DNA from: a virus
DNA length: 21,260 nucleotides
IMG/VR virus record: IMGVR_UViG_3300025449_000065
Coordinates: 1 to 21,260 of that record
Direction: 5' to 3' (one strand)
Under the pieces are notes generated by a model. The model saw only the letters and a list, made by a program, of their open reading frames with translations. It made no database searches and was not told the DNA's origin. The number at the start of each line of letters is the position of its first letter. The stretch's first letter is position 1. This document shows, one piece after another, positions 14,049-21,260 of this stretch. Made by a program: the position numbers and the translations under genes.

Positions 14049-15899
14049 ATGGCAGACCCAAAAGGCAATTTGCCTACAGAAGAATTAGATCAAGCTGATA
14101 CCGAAGCGGCAACACCTTCTGCTGCTGGAGCGCTTCCTGGTGCAGGTGCTACCGTTAAAGTAACACCAGGTAAAGGTAGTAATATTTCTGTTCCTGGTGC
14201 TACTTCTATGGATGAAGCACAAACTATGGCTGTCTTGGATCGCTTGCAAAAGTTTGTGGATGAAAAAGACACCAATAAAGGCATTATCAATCCATTGATG
14301 AAAGGTTTAAATCTTGGCTATGCTACTACATACGGCCCAGATGCTTTCCAACGTGCCCAAGCACAATACGATTTACAAGATAAAGATGTACAAAATACAC
14401 TAGCCACTATGGGTAGTTTGGCATCTAGCTTGTCACAAAACAAAGCGTTTTTGCAAGCCGCTAACACAGCCCCTGGAGGCGGTGGTGCGGCTGGTGCAGG
14501 AGCAACAGGCCCTGGTAGCACAATGCAAATGCAAGGCACACAGCTTTCCCCTATTGATACTATCATTGCCGGTTTACCTCCAACGTTGCAAGAACAAGCT
14601 CAAATCTATAAAAAGATGGGCACCCGTGCTGGCTACGATGAAATTATGAAAATGGGTCGTGAATACGAAACTAAAGGTCGTACTAGTGAATCTAAGAACC
14701 GTGCTGAAATCTTTGCTATGCCAGAAGGCCCAGAAAAAGATATCGCTATGCAAGAGTTCTTTAGCAAAGCATACCAGCCTGTTTCTACCTTTCAAGGTGG
14801 TTTCGAAAGCAAAACAAGTGGCGCTGGCGCTGCACGTGGTGCTGGATATGGTGGCTCTAATTTGGGCAACATGCGTCCACCGGGTCAAAGCACTGGTTTC
14901 CAACAAGGTATGGCTCCTGCGGATGATTTAGCACGTATTGATAATAATCTTAAGTCATACGGGGATAAAGGTATTAACACTTTAAGTGGTGTTATTAGCC
15001 GTTGGTCTCCTCCAAACGAAAACGATACTCCAACTTTAATTAACAACGCTTCTAAATTTCTTGGTATTGACCCCAATCAAAAAATTGATTTGTCAAACCC
15101 CGCAGTTCGGCAAGCTATTAGTACTGCTATTATTAAACAAGAAGGTAACCTGCCTAAGGTGTTTAGCACCCCTGGTAGAGGAACACCAACTGGTATCCCA
15201 TCTGGTACTGTTGAAGGTGCTAAGTACCAAACTGAACAGTTGGTACAGCAAAACAATATGGATCGTGAAGCGATTGTTAAGCCACTGCGTGAAACACAGC
15301 AAAAGAATTTAGCGTTGCCATCACAGATTGATAGCACGTTGGCTACAGTTGAAAAAGGTAAGTTTGGACCTGGTACTGGTTTGCGTAAATTTGCTTTGGA
15401 AACAGAAGGCATGTTTACCAACTTAAGCAAGAAAGAACTCAAAGAACTTACAGACTCTAGAACATTAGAATCCACAGCTAAGAAACTTATTTTGTCAGAT
15501 GCAAAAGGTTCTTTACCAGGTTCGTTCTCTGACTCTGACCGTGCATACATTGATAGCACTGGTGCAAGCATTAACGATCCTAAAGACTTTATTAAAGCCA
15601 CACTGCAGCTCAAAAAGGCTTCTATCCTTGCTAACAATGATTTGGCTAACTACCTTAGCAAACCTGAGAACTCTGGTCGTATTGCTGAAGCATACCAACA
15701 ATATCAAGACGAAGGTCGTGGTATGAAGATTTTGCGTGAAAATGCTCCGACATTATTTAAGTATGAAAAGAAAGCCGCCCCTACTGAAAATAAAGCACCT
15801 ACAACAGTTCACACAGATGACGCAGCACGTGCTTGGTTGGCTCAAAACCCAAATCATCCTAAAGCAGCAGCAGTAAGAAAATCTTTAGAAGGTAAATAA
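14049..15899 (+). CDS. Internal virion protein with putative murein-degrading domain
   Basis: A 616-residue protein. The N-terminal 290 residues are Ala/Gly-rich with helical parts and a Gly-rich linker. Residues about 292-370 contain NNLKSYGDKGINTLSGVISR, RWSPPNENDTPTLINNASKF and IIKQEGNLP. This matches a domain I know from other phage virion proteins, usually written as '(I/V)NT(I/V)xGIISRWAPPxEND ... HENG', thought to be lysozyme-like. Here the usual His before the Glu (E365) is Gln, so activity is uncertain. The C-terminal half is a long helical region (TLATVEKGKFGPGTG onward) with few hydrophobic stretches. It probably helps the ejected DNA pass the cell wall. Its stop overlaps the next start (TAATG). 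Confidence 0.62.
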   Translation: MADPKGNLPTEELDQADTEAATPSAAGALPGAGATVKVTPGKGSNISVPGATSMDEAQTMAVLDRLQKFVDEKDTNKGIINPLMKGLNLGYATTYGPDAFQRAQAQYDLQDKDVQNTLATMGSLASSLSQNKAFLQAANTAPGGGGAAGAGATGPGSTMQMQGTQLSPIDTIIAGLPPTLQEQAQIYKKMGTRAGYDEIMKMGREYETKGRTSESKNRAEIFAMPEGPEKDIAMQEFFSKAYQPVSTFQGGFESKTSGAGAARGAGYGGSNLGNMRPPGQSTGFQQGMAPADDLARIDNNLKSYGDKGINTLSGVISRWSPPNENDTPTLINNASKFLGIDPNQKIDLSNPAVRQAISTAIIKQEGNLPKVFSTPGRGTPTGIPSGTVEGAKYQTEQLVQQNNMDREAIVKPLRETQQKNLALPSQIDSTLATVEKGKFGPGTGLRKFALETEGMFTNLSKKELKELTDSRTLESTAKKLILSDAKGSLPGSFSDSDRAYIDSTGASINDPKDFIKATLQLKKASILANNDLANYLSKPENSGRIAEAYQQYQDEGRGMKILRENAPTLFKYEKKAAPTENKAPTTVHTDDAARAWLAQNPNHPKAAAVRKSLEGK

Positions 15900-18112
15900 T
15901 GGCTGATTTTAATCCAGATGAGTACATCGCCCAAAAAAGCGGTGACTTTAATCCTGATGAGTACATTGCTCAAAAAGGCAAAGTAACAGTAGAGGCTGCT
16001 CCAGAAGAAGAAAAACCAAGTAGCCTACCAAAGCTAGGTACTTGGAAAGATGCTGCTAAATCTGCAGAACGTATGGCTATTGCTGTAGCTAAGCCACCTG
16101 CAGCTATTGCAGAGTATCTTGGTTGGGGTGCTCCTGCTAAACAACTCTTGGCCCGTGATGAACAGCTTAGAGAAGAAACTGGACTTGGTGGTTCGTTGTC
16201 CAGTTTGGCTGGTGATGTTCTTGGTTATATGATGCCAGCTAAAGCTATTTCTACTGGCGTACAAGCTGCAAAGACAATTCCTAAAGTAGCAGAATTAACT
16301 GCTAAAATTCCACAAGCATTAGAAGCTGTCCCAGCTCTTAATAGGATTGTTCAAAATCCATACGCTCAAGCATCCGCAACCGGCGCTGGCGCAACACTAT
16401 TAAACCCAGCTGGTAAAGATATCACTGAGGAAGGATTTGGTGAAGAACGTGCTAAGCAAGCTATTACTGGCGCTGTTGCTGGTCCTGTATTGGCTGGTGC
16501 AGCTAAAGGATTTAGCAATGTATTAGATCCGCAGCTCAAGCGTTTGGCTGAACTTAGAGCTAAGGGTATTGATACTGATGCGCTAATCAAGGGCGACTCT
16601 ACACTAGGTCAGATTCTAGGTGGTGGTACACAAGCAGTTGAAAACTTCTTAAAGGTATTCCCATTTAGCGGTCTTAAAAAGGCTACTGAAAAGGGTGACG
16701 TAAACCTTAAGAACCTAACTACTGCTAGAAACGATATCACTAAACAGACAGCTCAAGAAGCTACTGATGATATTACTAGAACTATCGACCAAGATATTGC
16801 TAAACAAAAAGCAGCGTTAAACTTTAAGAACACAGCTTTAGACCAAGGACATAGAAACCTGGTACAGCAGGAAAACCAAGCCTTAGCAGATGAAGTTAGT
16901 GGTTATAGCCACCCCGTTATTAACCGCGCATTGGCTCCGATTGGCCATGAATTACCAGCTGGTGTTAAAGGTACAGAAGCAGTTGATTGGGCTACTAATA
17001 AAGTATCTCAGGGCTACCAAGATACTCTTAAAGATATCGGTAAAATTCCATTTGCAAAAGTGCACAAAGATGATATCTCATCATTCTTAGACCCCAAAAA
17101 CTTAAAACAATTTGATTTAACCCCCGCATTTAAAGAAAGACTTGCCGCAGACGTAGCAGATCTTACATCTGCGGCAGGTAGTGCTCGTACATTACCAGCT
17201 ACCGTATGGCAAGCCAAGTTACAGAAGTTGGGCGATAAAGCCTATTCAATTCGTAATGAAGCAGACAACAAGTTTGAAAAAGGTGAATACGCTAAGGCTT
17301 TGTTAGAGCTCAAAGACAAGTGGATGAAAATGATGGAAGATGCTTCTGGCAACACCAACATCCGTAAGCTCAACGAAGCCCATTCATTGTTGCAAGCTCC
17401 TATCCGTGCTTCTACACACCTTAAGACTATGCTTGAAGGCGGAGACTTTAAACCAGAAACTTTGGTTGCTGCATTTAAATCTGAGATGCCACAAAAGCGT
17501 TTTGCTAAAGCACAAGATGAGTATGTTCAAGACGCTATTAAAAAGTATCAAGAAATTGCCAAACGTAAGGCTGCATTAAAATCGGCACAAGAGCAACGGG
17601 CACTTGATTTAGAATCTGTTAAGGGCACTAATAAACAGGCGCACGATGATTTTGTTTCTCGTATGCAAGAAGCTGAAACAAAAGCTACCCGCAACGTAGC
17701 ACAGCAATCTGCTAAGACTCAAGAGCAATTAAACGAGTTAGTTGGTGGTATTCATAAAGAAGGTTTACCAAGTGGCATTCTAAACAAATTAGGATACGTA
17801 TTGGCGGCTGCTCCAGCGGCTCGTATTGTTAGTGGTGCTGGTAGCTTTATGGGTGTTCCGGGTGCTGGCTTAGCTGCTTCTGCTTTGAACTGGCCTGCTA
17901 TTGGTGCTGCCGCAGTTGGCCCACTGACACGCTTAGGCTATACATCACAACAGCAAGCGCTTAAAAAGCTAGCAACAGCCCCACGCTCCGAAGAGATGAA
18001 AGCTGCTGCTCAGCAGATTAGACAAAACCTACCACAGATTGGTGGGCTTGGTGGTTACTTAAAAGCAAGAACCGGCGAAGGTTACGCACCGGACGAAGGC
18101 GAAGAAGAGTAA
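15899..18112 (+). CDS. Large helical ejection-protein candidate with N-terminal duplicated motif
   Basis: A 737-residue protein. The first 28 residues contain DFNPDEYIAQK twice in tandem (3-13 and 16-26). Motifs of this FDPDxY(L/I)A type occur at the N-terminus of other phage internal proteins and may be a docking signal. Then come amphipathic helices (about 85-205), a charged helical body (about 240-630, rich in Lys/Gln/Glu, coiled-coil-like) and a C-terminal hydrophobic region (about 631-685, YVLAAAPAARIVSGAGSFMG, LAASALNWPAIGAAAVGPL) that could insert in a membrane. The acidic tail ends DEGEEE. Last gene of the plus-strand operon; its stop touches the stop of the opposing polymerase gene. 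Role as part of a trans-envelope DNA channel is inference. Confidence 0.62.
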   Translation: MADFNPDEYIAQKSGDFNPDEYIAQKGKVTVEAAPEEEKPSSLPKLGTWKDAAKSAERMAIAVAKPPAAIAEYLGWGAPAKQLLARDEQLREETGLGGSLSSLAGDVLGYMMPAKAISTGVQAAKTIPKVAELTAKIPQALEAVPALNRIVQNPYAQASATGAGATLLNPAGKDITEEGFGEERAKQAITGAVAGPVLAGAAKGFSNVLDPQLKRLAELRAKGIDTDALIKGDSTLGQILGGGTQAVENFLKVFPFSGLKKATEKGDVNLKNLTTARNDITKQTAQEATDDITRTIDQDIAKQKAALNFKNTALDQGHRNLVQQENQALADEVSGYSHPVINRALAPIGHELPAGVKGTEAVDWATNKVSQGYQDTLKDIGKIPFAKVHKDDISSFLDPKNLKQFDLTPAFKERLAADVADLTSAAGSARTLPATVWQAKLQKLGDKAYSIRNEADNKFEKGEYAKALLELKDKWMKMMEDASGNTNIRKLNEAHSLLQAPIRASTHLKTMLEGGDFKPETLVAAFKSEMPQKRFAKAQDEYVQDAIKKYQEIAKRKAALKSAQEQRALDLESVKGTNKQAHDDFVSRMQEAETKATRNVAQQSAKTQEQLNELVGGIHKEGLPSGILNKLGYVLAAAPAARIVSGAGSFMGVPGAGLAASALNWPAIGAAAVGPLTRLGYTSQQQALKKLATAPRSEEMKAAAQQIRQNLPQIGGLGGYLKARTGEGYAPDEGEEE
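15905..15982 (+). repeat. Two tandem 39-base units encoding DFNPDEYIAQK
   Basis: Units 15905-15943 and 15944-15982. Over the 33 bases encoding the 11 shared residues there are four differences (GAT/GAC, CCA/CCT, ATC/ATT, GCC/GCT), all silent. The peptide is therefore likely under selection in both copies. Confidence 0.85.
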
Positions 18113-20041
18113 TTACTTTCTATAGCGTTTAGAAATCCAACCTTCCGCAGCTAGCGGAAAGTCTGGTGCCCAGGCTGGTGGAGTAACCATAATACTGGTT
18201 ACATCTGCCAGCGCTTTATCCGCATTACCCTCATCAACTAGGAGTAACACCTCGTCATGGATAGAGTTGATAATGTTATAACCAGCTCCCTCGAGAGCTA
18301 TCATAGCAAACGCCAAGAAATCGCGAGCCGTACCCTGAACAGCACTTTGGAAAATACTACTTCCAATCAGGGGATTTCTACTCCACTGCCGTATGTAAGT
18401 GTTTTGGGAGTGGACAGTAACTCCAACCTTTTGACTACCCCATGGTGTGGTGAGCAACTCGAGCTCTGGCCTTTGCCAACAGATGAGACGCTTACTGGGT
18501 AACTGCATCCACAATGTATCTTTAGCACACTTAATCACAATCTTCCCACCAGCCATATAAGGAACCCCTGGGTTCTCTACAGCTTGGATTGCGGAAGTCT
18601 CGCACATCCCCCACAAAGCCTTAACACGTGAGTAGGCGGCACGATAGTTATCTACCGCATTTTTTGCTTGTCTTTCCGAGATTTGCACTCCCATCCCCTC
18701 AGCGTATTTGACAAGTCCTTTAGCCCCTTGTCCGAACATCGCTCCAAGAACTGCCGATTTGGATATCTGCCGTTGATCTTTTGTAACTTCATCATAAGGT
18801 ACGTGATATAAAGATTCCGAAGCAAATACTTTATACTCATCTAATCCCTTTCTAAACAGTTCTACTTTATCTTTTTGCCCAGCCAGCCAGACGCCAACTC
18901 GGTTTTCAATTGAGCTAAAATCCACATCAACGAAGGTCTTGCAGTTTGGAGCTTTAATTGCTGATCTAACGAGGGAGGAGAGTTCTGACATATTCCCCAT
19001 TCTTTTACCAAATACTTGTGGTATTGCCACCTCAATTGCAGCATCTTCCAAAGTGGGACGCGCAATATTCTGTAAATTAAGTCCCCCACGGGACGCCCAG
19101 CGGCCAGTACTAGCGCCATGATATACCAGTGTATTCCGAATCTTTCCTTCATGTTGTATCTCCAACATTTTAGCGTACTTAGCCACGCTAGTTTGGCTTC
19201 CTTCTTGGCGCAGTTCTAATACGCGTTTAATATTTGGGTCTAAGTTAGTATTCACTAACATAGCTGAAACGGTCTTTTCGGTCAGGTCGGCTAAGTCTGC
19301 ACCTTGTGCATTTAACCAACCTAGCAATTTAGCCCTCTCAGATGGCTTAAAACCGGTCAAGGAGACGCATTCAGCGTCGATGGCTGCCTGGGCATCATCC
19401 ACAGCTTTGACAGCATTCTGGAGCTCTATAGGGTCCACAGGAACGCCTCTTAAATTAATCCGCTGGGTGAGCTCCCAAACATCTTGTTCGACGGCTGTAA
19501 GGGGCCTTAAATCGCGTCCTAAAGCCATTTCCGTACGAACGTCCTGTGCGCAGTATGCAAACAGTTCCGCCATGAGTTCTGGGTCTTCGTTAAAGGTTCC
19601 GTCTTTCTGTGGCTTGCATAGCTTTTGGATTAACTTGCGACCAGTGGTATCTTTAAGATGTTCTGAGTTCATAAACAGGGCGGCATCTTCCAAGGCCTGT
19701 GGGATGTTGTTTGCTGCAGCTACTGCCATAGTATCTATTACTTGGGTCAGCTTTAATGGAGGCCAGCCGTACTTAGGCACACAGACGCAGCTCCAGATGG
19801 CGTACTCGAACATGGCGTTCCAAGCTGCAATTTTGCCGCCGTTCTTGACGTGAGCCAACAAAAACATTAGGTCTTCGTTTGACGGATCAACTCGAGGTTT
19901 TGTAACAACTACGGAATCTGTTGTTGGGTTGCCGAACGCAATACACAACACTTCTGTTGTGTCGTCGTTGGCGTAGATGTCTAGACCACGGTCAGGAAGG
20001 TCAATAGCTGAACGGGTTTCAAAGTCGATTGAGTAAATCAT
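18113..20041 (-). CDS. polA: Family A DNA polymerase with 3'-5' exonuclease
   Basis: A 642-residue replicative polymerase without a 5'-3' nuclease, as in T7-type phages. Exonuclease motifs: IDFET (D6, E8), WNAMFEYAIW (N75, E79) and YCAQD (Y163, D167). Polymerase: GASTGRWASRGGLNLQN (309-325), motif A VDVDFSSIENR (D374, E379), motif B RQISKSAVLGAMFGQG (R424, K428, L432, F436) and motif C SIHDEV (H595, D596, E597). L432 is in the place of E. coli Pol I Phe762, the Leu762 type frequent among environmental phages; F436 replaces the usual Tyr766. AGGAG lies 7 bases before the ATG. It follows a terminator and a possible promoter and converges with the virion operon. Confidence 0.95.
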   Translation of the reverse strand: MIYSIDFETRSAIDLPDRGLDIYANDDTTEVLCIAFGNPTTDSVVVTKPRVDPSNEDLMFLLAHVKNGGKIAAWNAMFEYAIWSCVCVPKYGWPPLKLTQVIDTMAVAAANNIPQALEDAALFMNSEHLKDTTGRKLIQKLCKPQKDGTFNEDPELMAELFAYCAQDVRTEMALGRDLRPLTAVEQDVWELTQRINLRGVPVDPIELQNAVKAVDDAQAAIDAECVSLTGFKPSERAKLLGWLNAQGADLADLTEKTVSAMLVNTNLDPNIKRVLELRQEGSQTSVAKYAKMLEIQHEGKIRNTLVYHGASTGRWASRGGLNLQNIARPTLEDAAIEVAIPQVFGKRMGNMSELSSLVRSAIKAPNCKTFVDVDFSSIENRVGVWLAGQKDKVELFRKGLDEYKVFASESLYHVPYDEVTKDQRQISKSAVLGAMFGQGAKGLVKYAEGMGVQISERQAKNAVDNYRAAYSRVKALWGMCETSAIQAVENPGVPYMAGGKIVIKCAKDTLWMQLPSKRLICWQRPELELLTTPWGSQKVGVTVHSQNTYIRQWSRNPLIGSSIFQSAVQGTARDFLAFAMIALEGAGYNIINSIHDEVLLLVDEGNADKALADVTSIMVTPPAWAPDFPLAAEGWISKRYRK

Positions 20042-20082: not shown

Positions 20083-20111
20083 ATTGTAACATAAAAAAGG
20101 GGCGCTGTACA
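20083..20111 (-). promoter_or_regulatory. Possible sigma-70-type promoter for the polymerase gene
   Basis: On the minus strand TGTACA (4 of 6 to the -35 consensus), a 17-base spacer and TACAAT (5 of 6 to the -10 consensus) precede the polymerase gene, about 41 bases before its ATG. The -35 part lies in the loop of the terminator, so the two signals overlap. The match is moderate. Confidence 0.35.
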
Positions 20112-20125: not shown

Positions 20126-20320
20126 TCACCACCATGTGAATCTATTTAATACTTCTAACTTTTCATCATTGGACATAACATACCATTTAGAAATCTCCTC
20201 CCTGGTTCGTTTGCATCCTCGACATACATCTTGAGTGTCAAGGGTACAGATTCCGTTACATGGAGATTTAACTTCCACGTCTCCGGCCAGTTCCACAGAT
20301 TTAGTGGAGGGCAAGCCCAT
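20126..20320 (-). CDS. DUF1289 small Cys-rich protein
   Basis: A 64-residue protein with four Cys in the spacing C21-x3-C25-x7-C33-x2-C36, within SPCNGICTLDTQDVCRGCKR, followed by TREEISKWYVMSNDEKLEVL. This is the DUF1289 pattern (SPC-x-x-x-C-x-L-x(6)-C-x-G-C-x-R-T-x-x-E-I-x-x-W-x-x-M). These proteins are thought to bind a metal or Fe-S cluster; their function is not established. The ATG follows the reductase stop by three bases with no good ribosome site, so translation is probably coupled. Its presence directly behind a class II reductase suggests a role near it (metal supply or redox), which is inference. Confidence 0.85.
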   Translation of the reverse strand: MGLPSTKSVELAGDVEVKSPCNGICTLDTQDVCRGCKRTREEISKWYVMSNDEKLEVLNRFTWW

Positions 20321-20323
20321 GGA

Positions 20324-21260
20324 TCAGATTTCACAAGCGCCTGCACTACATGCTAGCTGTTGCGCCCCTTCGACGTTGTCCGTGTTTTCTTTGAAGTCTT
20401 CCCAGTTGATTTTGGGGAGGCTGGCTTTGAGGCTTTCGTAGTCTTCTTGGCTGCACTCTTCGTACGGGGCTTGGCGGTACGTGCCTCCGTCGTACGGGAG
20501 ATAGGAAACTCCGGAAATTTCGCTAAAGTTTTCCCACGTCCAGGCACCGACGGCTGGCCAGTCTTTTTCTTCGACAGAGATTGTGACAGAGGGTTTATGT
20601 TCGCACCAGTAGCGTTGGTAAGTAAGCCAGAGAGATAAGTGGCTAATTGGAGTGACGTCGGATCTAGTGATACCGTCTGGGGCTTTGATTGGAAAACTGA
20701 ACACAACCGTTTGATCAGGTTTGTAAACACATGCTTCATTTGGTATTCCTTGTGAAATTAAAAATTGGGTGAGAGGGTCTTTTTTATCCCCTCTAACTCT
20801 TCGGATGTAGAATTTAGAGTGGCGCGGGTGGATTCCAGAAGCGCTATCAACAAGTTGACTGACTGTTCCGGAGGGTTTAACGCAAGTAATTGCGCTACTC
20901 TTAGGTATTCCAAGCAGTTCTGCAAACTCTTCATTGGCTCTTCTAGCTTCCTCTCTAAGCTCGGTAAGTAATCCATTTAACTCTTCTCCTTGCGTGGTGA
21001 GTAGTGGGTTGTCGTAAATTCCGGTGAGGGAAACACCAAGGAGTCGTTCTTCCTCGGTATTGCGCTGCCACACTTTCCGCAGATAAGGGAACTTTGTGAA
21101 GGTGGCCTGGATTGTACCAAGGATGGAAGCAATCCGCACTTTGCGCATAAGCGTTTCTTTTGTGTCGTCATGGCGTACTACAGCCTCAGTAAGATTACAA
21201 AATTGGTATGGTCTGAGAATGATCTCTGAGCACGGATTAGTTCCGAACTCAAAATTTGGA
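20324..21260 (-). CDS. nrdJ: Class II (B12-dependent) ribonucleoside-triphosphate reductase, C-terminal part
   Basis: The frame runs in from the right edge, so the N-terminal part is missing; ATG 21148 is internal. The visible 311 residues contain GTNPCSEIILRPYQFCN, in which the two Cys are 11 apart, as are the radical Cys408 and Cys419 of Lactobacillus leichmannii reductase, with Glu two after the first Cys as Glu410. Next come RKVRIASILGTIQATFTKFP and NTEEERLLGVSLTGI, typical of this monomeric family. The extreme C-terminus ACSAGACEI keeps two Cys five apart, equivalent to Cys731 and Cys736, which re-reduce the active site. The enzyme makes dNTPs from NTPs with adenosylcobalamin, without oxygen. 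No truncation seen at the C-terminus. Confidence 0.93.
   Translation of the reverse strand, partial: PNFEFGTNPCSEIILRPYQFCNLTEAVVRHDDTKETLMRKVRIASILGTIQATFTKFPYLRKVWQRNTEEERLLGVSLTGIYDNPLLTTQGEELNGLLTELREEARRANEEFAELLGIPKSSAITCVKPSGTVSQLVDSASGIHPRHSKFYIRRVRGDKKDPLTQFLISQGIPNEACVYKPDQTVVFSFPIKAPDGITRSDVTPISHLSLWLTYQRYWCEHKPSVTISVEEKDWPAVGAWTWENFSEISGVSYLPYDGGTYRQAPYEECSQEDYESLKASLPKINWEDFKENTDNVEGAQQLACSAGACEI

Follow-up and report, generated by a model that had tools for sequence, protein, structure and literature searches.

The window, i.e., the whole stretch of DNA analysed here, is a virus record of 21,260 bases. Its plus-strand genes, up to position 18112, are structural or lytic in appearance as judged by eye, and the stop codon of the plus-strand gene at 15899-18112 adjoins that of a polA gene on the minus strand. 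Toward lower coordinates, the minus strand carries the end of a ribonucleotide reductase (RNR) gene, a small DUF1289 gene and polA, the ORF of which runs from an ATG at 20041 to a stop codon ending at 18113. The features considered are:

20324..21259, minus strand: part of an RNR gene coding for the last 311 aa of the enzyme (adenosylcobalamin-dependent, class II, RTPR-like), running off the window (TIGR02505, 148 bits for the fragment)
20126..20320, minus strand: gene for a small DUF1289 protein of 64 aa, between RNR and polA (Pfam PF06945, 64 bits)
20083..20111, minus strand: possible, weak sigma-70-like promoter upstream of polA (TGTACA-17-TACAAT)
18113..20041, minus strand: polA, family A DNA polymerase of 642 aa, polymerase domain at about residues 261-640
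18725..18772, minus strand: motif B / O helix, RQISKSAVLGAMFGQG, residues 424-439, read from the sequence and aligned to E. coli R754 onward
18746..18748, minus strand: Leu432 codon, position 762 by alignment to E. coli Pol I
18734..18736, minus strand: Phe436 codon, position 766 by alignment to E. coli Pol I

The gap between RNR and polA measures 282 nt and contains the DUF1289 gene, which is present in 21 of the 74 relatives having at least 300 nt upstream of polA. The promoter-like match is only a suggestion of a polA promoter, as one such match was found in the region vs. 0.9 expected by chance. No transcription terminator is claimed between the DUF1289 gene and polA, since the hairpin located there (-14.6 kcal/mol) has a z of only -1.24 and a terminator scan found none.

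The polA product scored 109.4 bits against Pfam DNA_pol_A, well above the gathering score of 34.3, and was assigned to PHROG 17. An AlphaFold model, built from a 40-row alignment (A2), had a mean pLDDT of 90.4, with the block 431-440 at 90 and a weak stretch at residues 311-320 (pLDDT 55). The top solved structures in VIA-align were the Bst fragment 4dsj (Z 28.6, rmsd 4.2, 517 residues aligned) and the Klenow fragment 1kfd, which aligned with Z 27.9 and rmsd 4.4 over 490 residues. The alignments run over model residues 1-642, and the predicted fold is Klenow-like. Residues identical to E. coli R668, D705, E710, R754, K758, Q849, H881, D882 and E883 are found in the window polymerase, and motif A (D374, E379), motif B (R424, K428) and motif C (H595, D596, E597) are all intact. 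On the template side, R841 and N845 of E. coli are replaced by Ser561 and Gln565.

The N-terminal part aligns with the exonuclease domain of Klenow-type fragments, and a Pfam search with E up to 0.01 returned DNA_pol_A alone, with no exonuclease or 5' nuclease family. D6, E8, N75, F78, E79, Y163 and D167, which we take to be exonuclease motif residues, are invariant in the 40-row alignment. Residues 75-79, presumably exonuclease motif II, read N-x-x-F-E, with Glu at the place of E. coli Asp424. Based on the fold alignment and these motifs, the N-terminal part is a putative proofreading exonuclease. A weak match to NCBIfam phage_DpoZ_2 (30.8 bits) would fit a DpoZ-like polymerase adapted to a modified base, as in 2-aminoadenine genomes. 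This score lies far under the cut-off of 350, and the adenylosuccinate-synthetase family (PurZ-type, PF00709) was matched in 0/20 contigs examined, which may be incomplete. The modified-base reading is disfavoured on both counts and considered very improbable.

Residue numbering follows E. coli K-12 Pol I (from NC_000913), which was included in an alignment of the window protein with its relatives. In this alignment R424, K428, L432 and F436 correspond to R754, K758, F762 and Y766, and an alignment with 101 relatives that left out E. coli gave identical motif columns. In the predicted structure, a helix at 421-435 stops just short of F436, as expected for the O helix. The ORF and the motif are as the initial annotation gave them, and its placement of Leu at 762 and Phe at 766 agrees with the alignment to E. 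coli Pol I, no other residue occupying position 766.

A scan of IMG/VR with the window protein gave 170 relatives, the best 80 of which are 69-95% identical and all carry Leu762 and Phe766 (80/80). One further member was added by the contig CAIPQU010000110.1 (L192), giving a clade of 82 (the window, L002-L081 and L192). Leu762, Phe766 and the nine catalytic-residue equivalents from R668 to E883 are each constant in 82/82 members. The L192 contig is binned as an uncultured betaproteobacterium and contains RNR, polA and, by eye, SSB-like and kinase-like ORFs; its binning may be either a host hint or a binning artefact. The codon for Phe766 is TTT in 66/82 and TTC in 16/82 members. Such synonymous drift is as expected under purifying selection, and the residue being held while its codon drifts argues against chance or a sequencing slip. 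An assembly or sequencing error might be suspected, as the window is a single contig, but the agreement of 80/80 relatives from other contigs and the use of two different Phe codons refute it, leaving an error at this codon practically inconceivable.

The initial annotation had regarded Tyr766 as the normal, almost invariant residue, and Phe766 as a mark of an exceptional enzyme. The former was confirmed among the polymerases sampled. Tyr766 was found in 51/51 Pol I sequences from one bacterial phylum (L282 and L284-L333, read out of 194 matching genomes), in 7/7 Phe762 phage polymerases chosen from one listing, and in 79/79 readable T7-like polymerases, one of the 80 being unreadable. Phe766 is therefore seen in 0/137 readable Phe762 or Tyr762 polymerases, a control set that is small and phylogenetically clumped, with all Tyr762 rows T7-like and all cellular rows from one phylum. 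The latter claim did not hold: Phe766 occurs throughout the clade and recurs in three other Leu762 lineages. Many close relatives with the same residue and ordinary behaviour had been named as what would speak against the claim, and of these two elements the shared residue is what was found.

The three other lineages emerged from 21 phage-collection records, hand-picked from 1687 that matched the window polymerase (best-ranked match 36.9% identical). All 21 carry Leu762, with Tyr766 in 18/21 and Phe766 in 3/21, namely, the environmental phage ctNMl277, Achromobacter phage JWX and Pseudomonas phage RSP; two of these lineages are thus known from cultivated phages. The relatives of RSP in IMG/VR have Phe766 in 3/3 cases, and those of ctNMl277 (best 80 of 109) have Phe766 in 76/80 and Tyr766 in 4/80. 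Among six further loci, Phe766 was present in two (JWX itself again and an 87% relative) and Tyr766 in four, and a scan of viral_contigs with the ctvy9321 polymerase found no relatives. Within this sample, Phe766 is apparently restricted to polymerases with Leu762. Among the open-access papers searched, none dealt with variation at position 766 of phage polymerases.

At positions 765, 768 and 845, the window clade departs from the residues of most other Leu762 enzymes. Gln845 was considered as an obligatory partner of Phe766 and rejected, as JWX and the ctNMl277 group combine Phe766 with Glu845. Several sampled records show peculiarities of their own. Two polA genes of the ctNMl277 type, with 60% and 59% identity to the query, lie about 37 kb from each other on one 72.5-kb contig (IMGVR_UViG_3300007734_000751; L144 and L149), which is perhaps an assembly fusion of two phage genomes. 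In the Thiohalocapsa phage record OP947166.1 (L085), the polymerase is annotated as two overlapping ORFs, each named DNA polymerase. An unusual motif B with Pro759 and Arg767 (KPxxLGxxYR) is found in L085, L099 and L100; its carriers are Thiohalocapsa phage MD04, Pseudomonas phage SS2019XI (Casjensviridae) and Salmonella phage PMBT19.

To place these lineages, a tree was built from 50 polymerase-domain representatives with columns 762-768 left out. Support was 100/100 for each of three groups, the window clade, the ctNMl277 group and the RSP group, and the window clade stands apart from the other two and from JWX. The state at 766 needs at least five changes on this tree. A single origin of Phe766 was rejected, as forcing the 30 Phe766 rows together cost 277 log-likelihood units (AU test, p-AU 4e-127), a constraint that also breaks up the ctNMl277 group since one Tyr766 row sits there. 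The position of that row suggests reversion as well. In a quicker tree with an E. coli root, the window clade had L085, L099 and L100 as its neighbours (SH-aLRT 94), a fork that the careful 50-representative tree leaves open. Judged from these sequences, the Leu762/Phe766 pairing is a variation on the Leu762 type that has arisen repeatedly and is constant in the window clade as far as it has been read.

The recurrence of Phe766 solely on a Leu762 background raises the possibility that Tyr766 is dispensable or disfavoured once Leu762 is present. The three further Leu762 lineages with Phe766 and its absence from the 137 Phe762/Tyr762 polymerases would both be expected from such a contingency. 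However, the rows are related and their effective number is small, given the makeup of the controls described above, and Leu762 also exists with Tyr766, as in most of the phage-collection records and in a few ctNMl277 relatives. The contingency, which is compatible with our preferred explanation, is therefore held only tentatively, at somewhat less than even credence.

What the substitution does to the enzyme can be considered from work on Klenow-type polymerases. Tyr766 hydrogen-bonds to the Glu710 steric gate, and in the Klenow fragment Y766S is reported to be a mutator and Y766F is not. It was proposed in the initial annotation that loss of the 766 hydroxyl may alter nucleotide selection; in its strong form, fidelity and ribo-/dideoxy-discrimination would be materially changed and Phe766 selected for that effect. 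The proximity of 766 to the steric gate is in line with this, as is the Tyr766 of all 137 control polymerases, in which the hydroxyl is normally kept. Conversely, Tyr to Phe is a conservative change, and several separate lineages have Phe766 with the other catalytic residues intact. In simulations of a Bacillus Pol I fragment (E. coli numbering), Y766F was mostly wild-type-like, which further weakens the proposal, and showed the largest stabilisation of the closed form, a result described as agreeing with the experiments of Hohlbein 2013, while Y766A disturbed the closed state (PMC4882331). The same text notes decreased thumb-fingers coupling for Y766F and calls it a mutator in passing, so that it may affect fidelity after all (PMC4882331). 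Overall, a material change in nucleotide selection is regarded as unlikely.

The explanation that we prefer, and consider probable, is that this tailed phage replicates with an ordinary family A enzyme of the Leu762 type, which belongs to a well-supported clade that keeps Phe766 and in which a hydroxyl contact is lost with a small open/closed shift. With Phe, the side chain would remain aromatic where the O helix ends, and the loss would be confined to the contact of the hydroxyl with the Glu710 steric gate; the fingers would still close, and DNA would be copied with a small change in the open/closed balance. That the enzyme is active and that Phe766 has a mild effect are both expectations, and Klenow-type results may not carry over given Ser561, Gln565 and the clade differences at 765, 768 and 845. 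As for Leu762 itself, it is described as lowering the specific activity of the T7 enzyme by 97% and as making Taq slower and more accurate (PMC13228545, PMC6302109), and Leu762 enzymes are argued to need compensating changes (PMC13228545). It is a conjecture that Phe766 is one of these.

The second distinctive trait of the clade is its RNR companion. An RNR gene lies upstream of polA on the same strand in 69/69 clade loci whose upstream sequence is 1500 nt or longer, mostly within a few hundred bases and in some cases at distances up to about 2.4 kb. Among 11 loci with less upstream sequence, an RNR fragment was found in six and none in the five with 0-141 nt upstream. Three full-length clade RNRs scored 296-305 bits against TIGR02505, by far the best family listed, albeit under its curated cut-off of 340. 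In 104 other loci, many with short flanks, no match to the window RNR was found. Between the RNR of L192 and phage RNRs such as that of Lentibacter phage ICBM2 (annotated as cobalamin-dependent), identity reaches 65.8%, vs. 36.9% for the best-ranked phage-collection match of the window polymerase. The two genes may have separate histories, or RNR may simply be the slower-evolving protein.

In 20 clade contigs, RNR (PF02867) was matched in 20/20, weakly but over the cut-off, and an SNF2-like helicase in 19/20; no DnaB match was found in these 20, nor any tyrosine integrase (PF00589) or serine recombinase (PF00239), with the caveat that the contigs may be incomplete. According to published surveys, Leu762 polymerases are accompanied by helicases of the SNF2 and UvrD types, an RNR is seldom close by, and temperate phages are their typical carriers (PMC6302109, PMC9069017). 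Of 140 contigs carrying both a polymerase and an RNR gene, 2% had Leu762, which indicates that some exceptions have already been seen (PMC6302109, PMC9069017). In PMC10547690, a class II RTPR is taken as a sign that a virus is lytic. The reported absence of RNR from Leu762 phages, which is an association and not a definition, does not extend to the window clade, and the link between Leu762 and lifestyle that the initial annotation had drawn fits the clade poorly. The clade is likely lytic, as far as contigs that may be incomplete allow this to be read. In the mostly Phe766 ctNMl277 group, neither RNR nor tyrosine integrase was found in any of 22 contigs examined, and Phe766 was for this reason rejected as a marker of RNR linkage.

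These observations can be combined into a broader reading, in which loss of the aromatic residue at 762 releases Tyr766, so that Phe766 would be recurrent in Leu762 phage polymerases only, and in which a lytic-looking Leu762/Phe766 clade with an RTPR-type reductase goes against the 762-lifestyle rule. This reading falls a little short of an even balance in our judgement. As first stated, i.e., as one odd residue in one enzyme, the finding is ordinary; the remaining interest is that Phe766 seems confined to Leu762 enzymes and that an RNR constantly accompanies polA in the clade. Position 762 is used for predicting phage lifestyle from environmental sequence, and such predictions should allow for this Leu762 clade, a counter-example that has RNR upstream of polA at all testable loci and in which no integrase was found. 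The recurrent Phe766 offers natural replicates for studying the role of the 766 hydroxyl and the dependence between 762 and 766.

Compared with known systems, the window polymerase shares the Klenow-type fold and the catalytic residues with the E. coli Pol I Klenow fragment and T7 gp5, but it combines Leu762 with Phe766, whereas E. coli Pol I has Phe762/Tyr766 and T7 gp5 has Tyr762/Tyr766. The JWX and RSP polymerases have the same Leu762 with Phe766 (LGLGFGMG and LGAGFGMG), although they are 32-34% identical to the window polymerase, belong to other tree lineages and have Gly and Met at positions 765 and 768, at which Met765 and Gln768 predominate in the window clade. Lastly, the window clade resembles the Leu762 phage polymerases described as Leu I and Leu II (Nasko 2018, Keown 2022) in having Leu762 and an SNF2-like helicase with no DnaB match, and differs from them in Phe766, in the MFGQG that follows position 762, in Gln845 and in the RNR upstream of polA in every testable locus.
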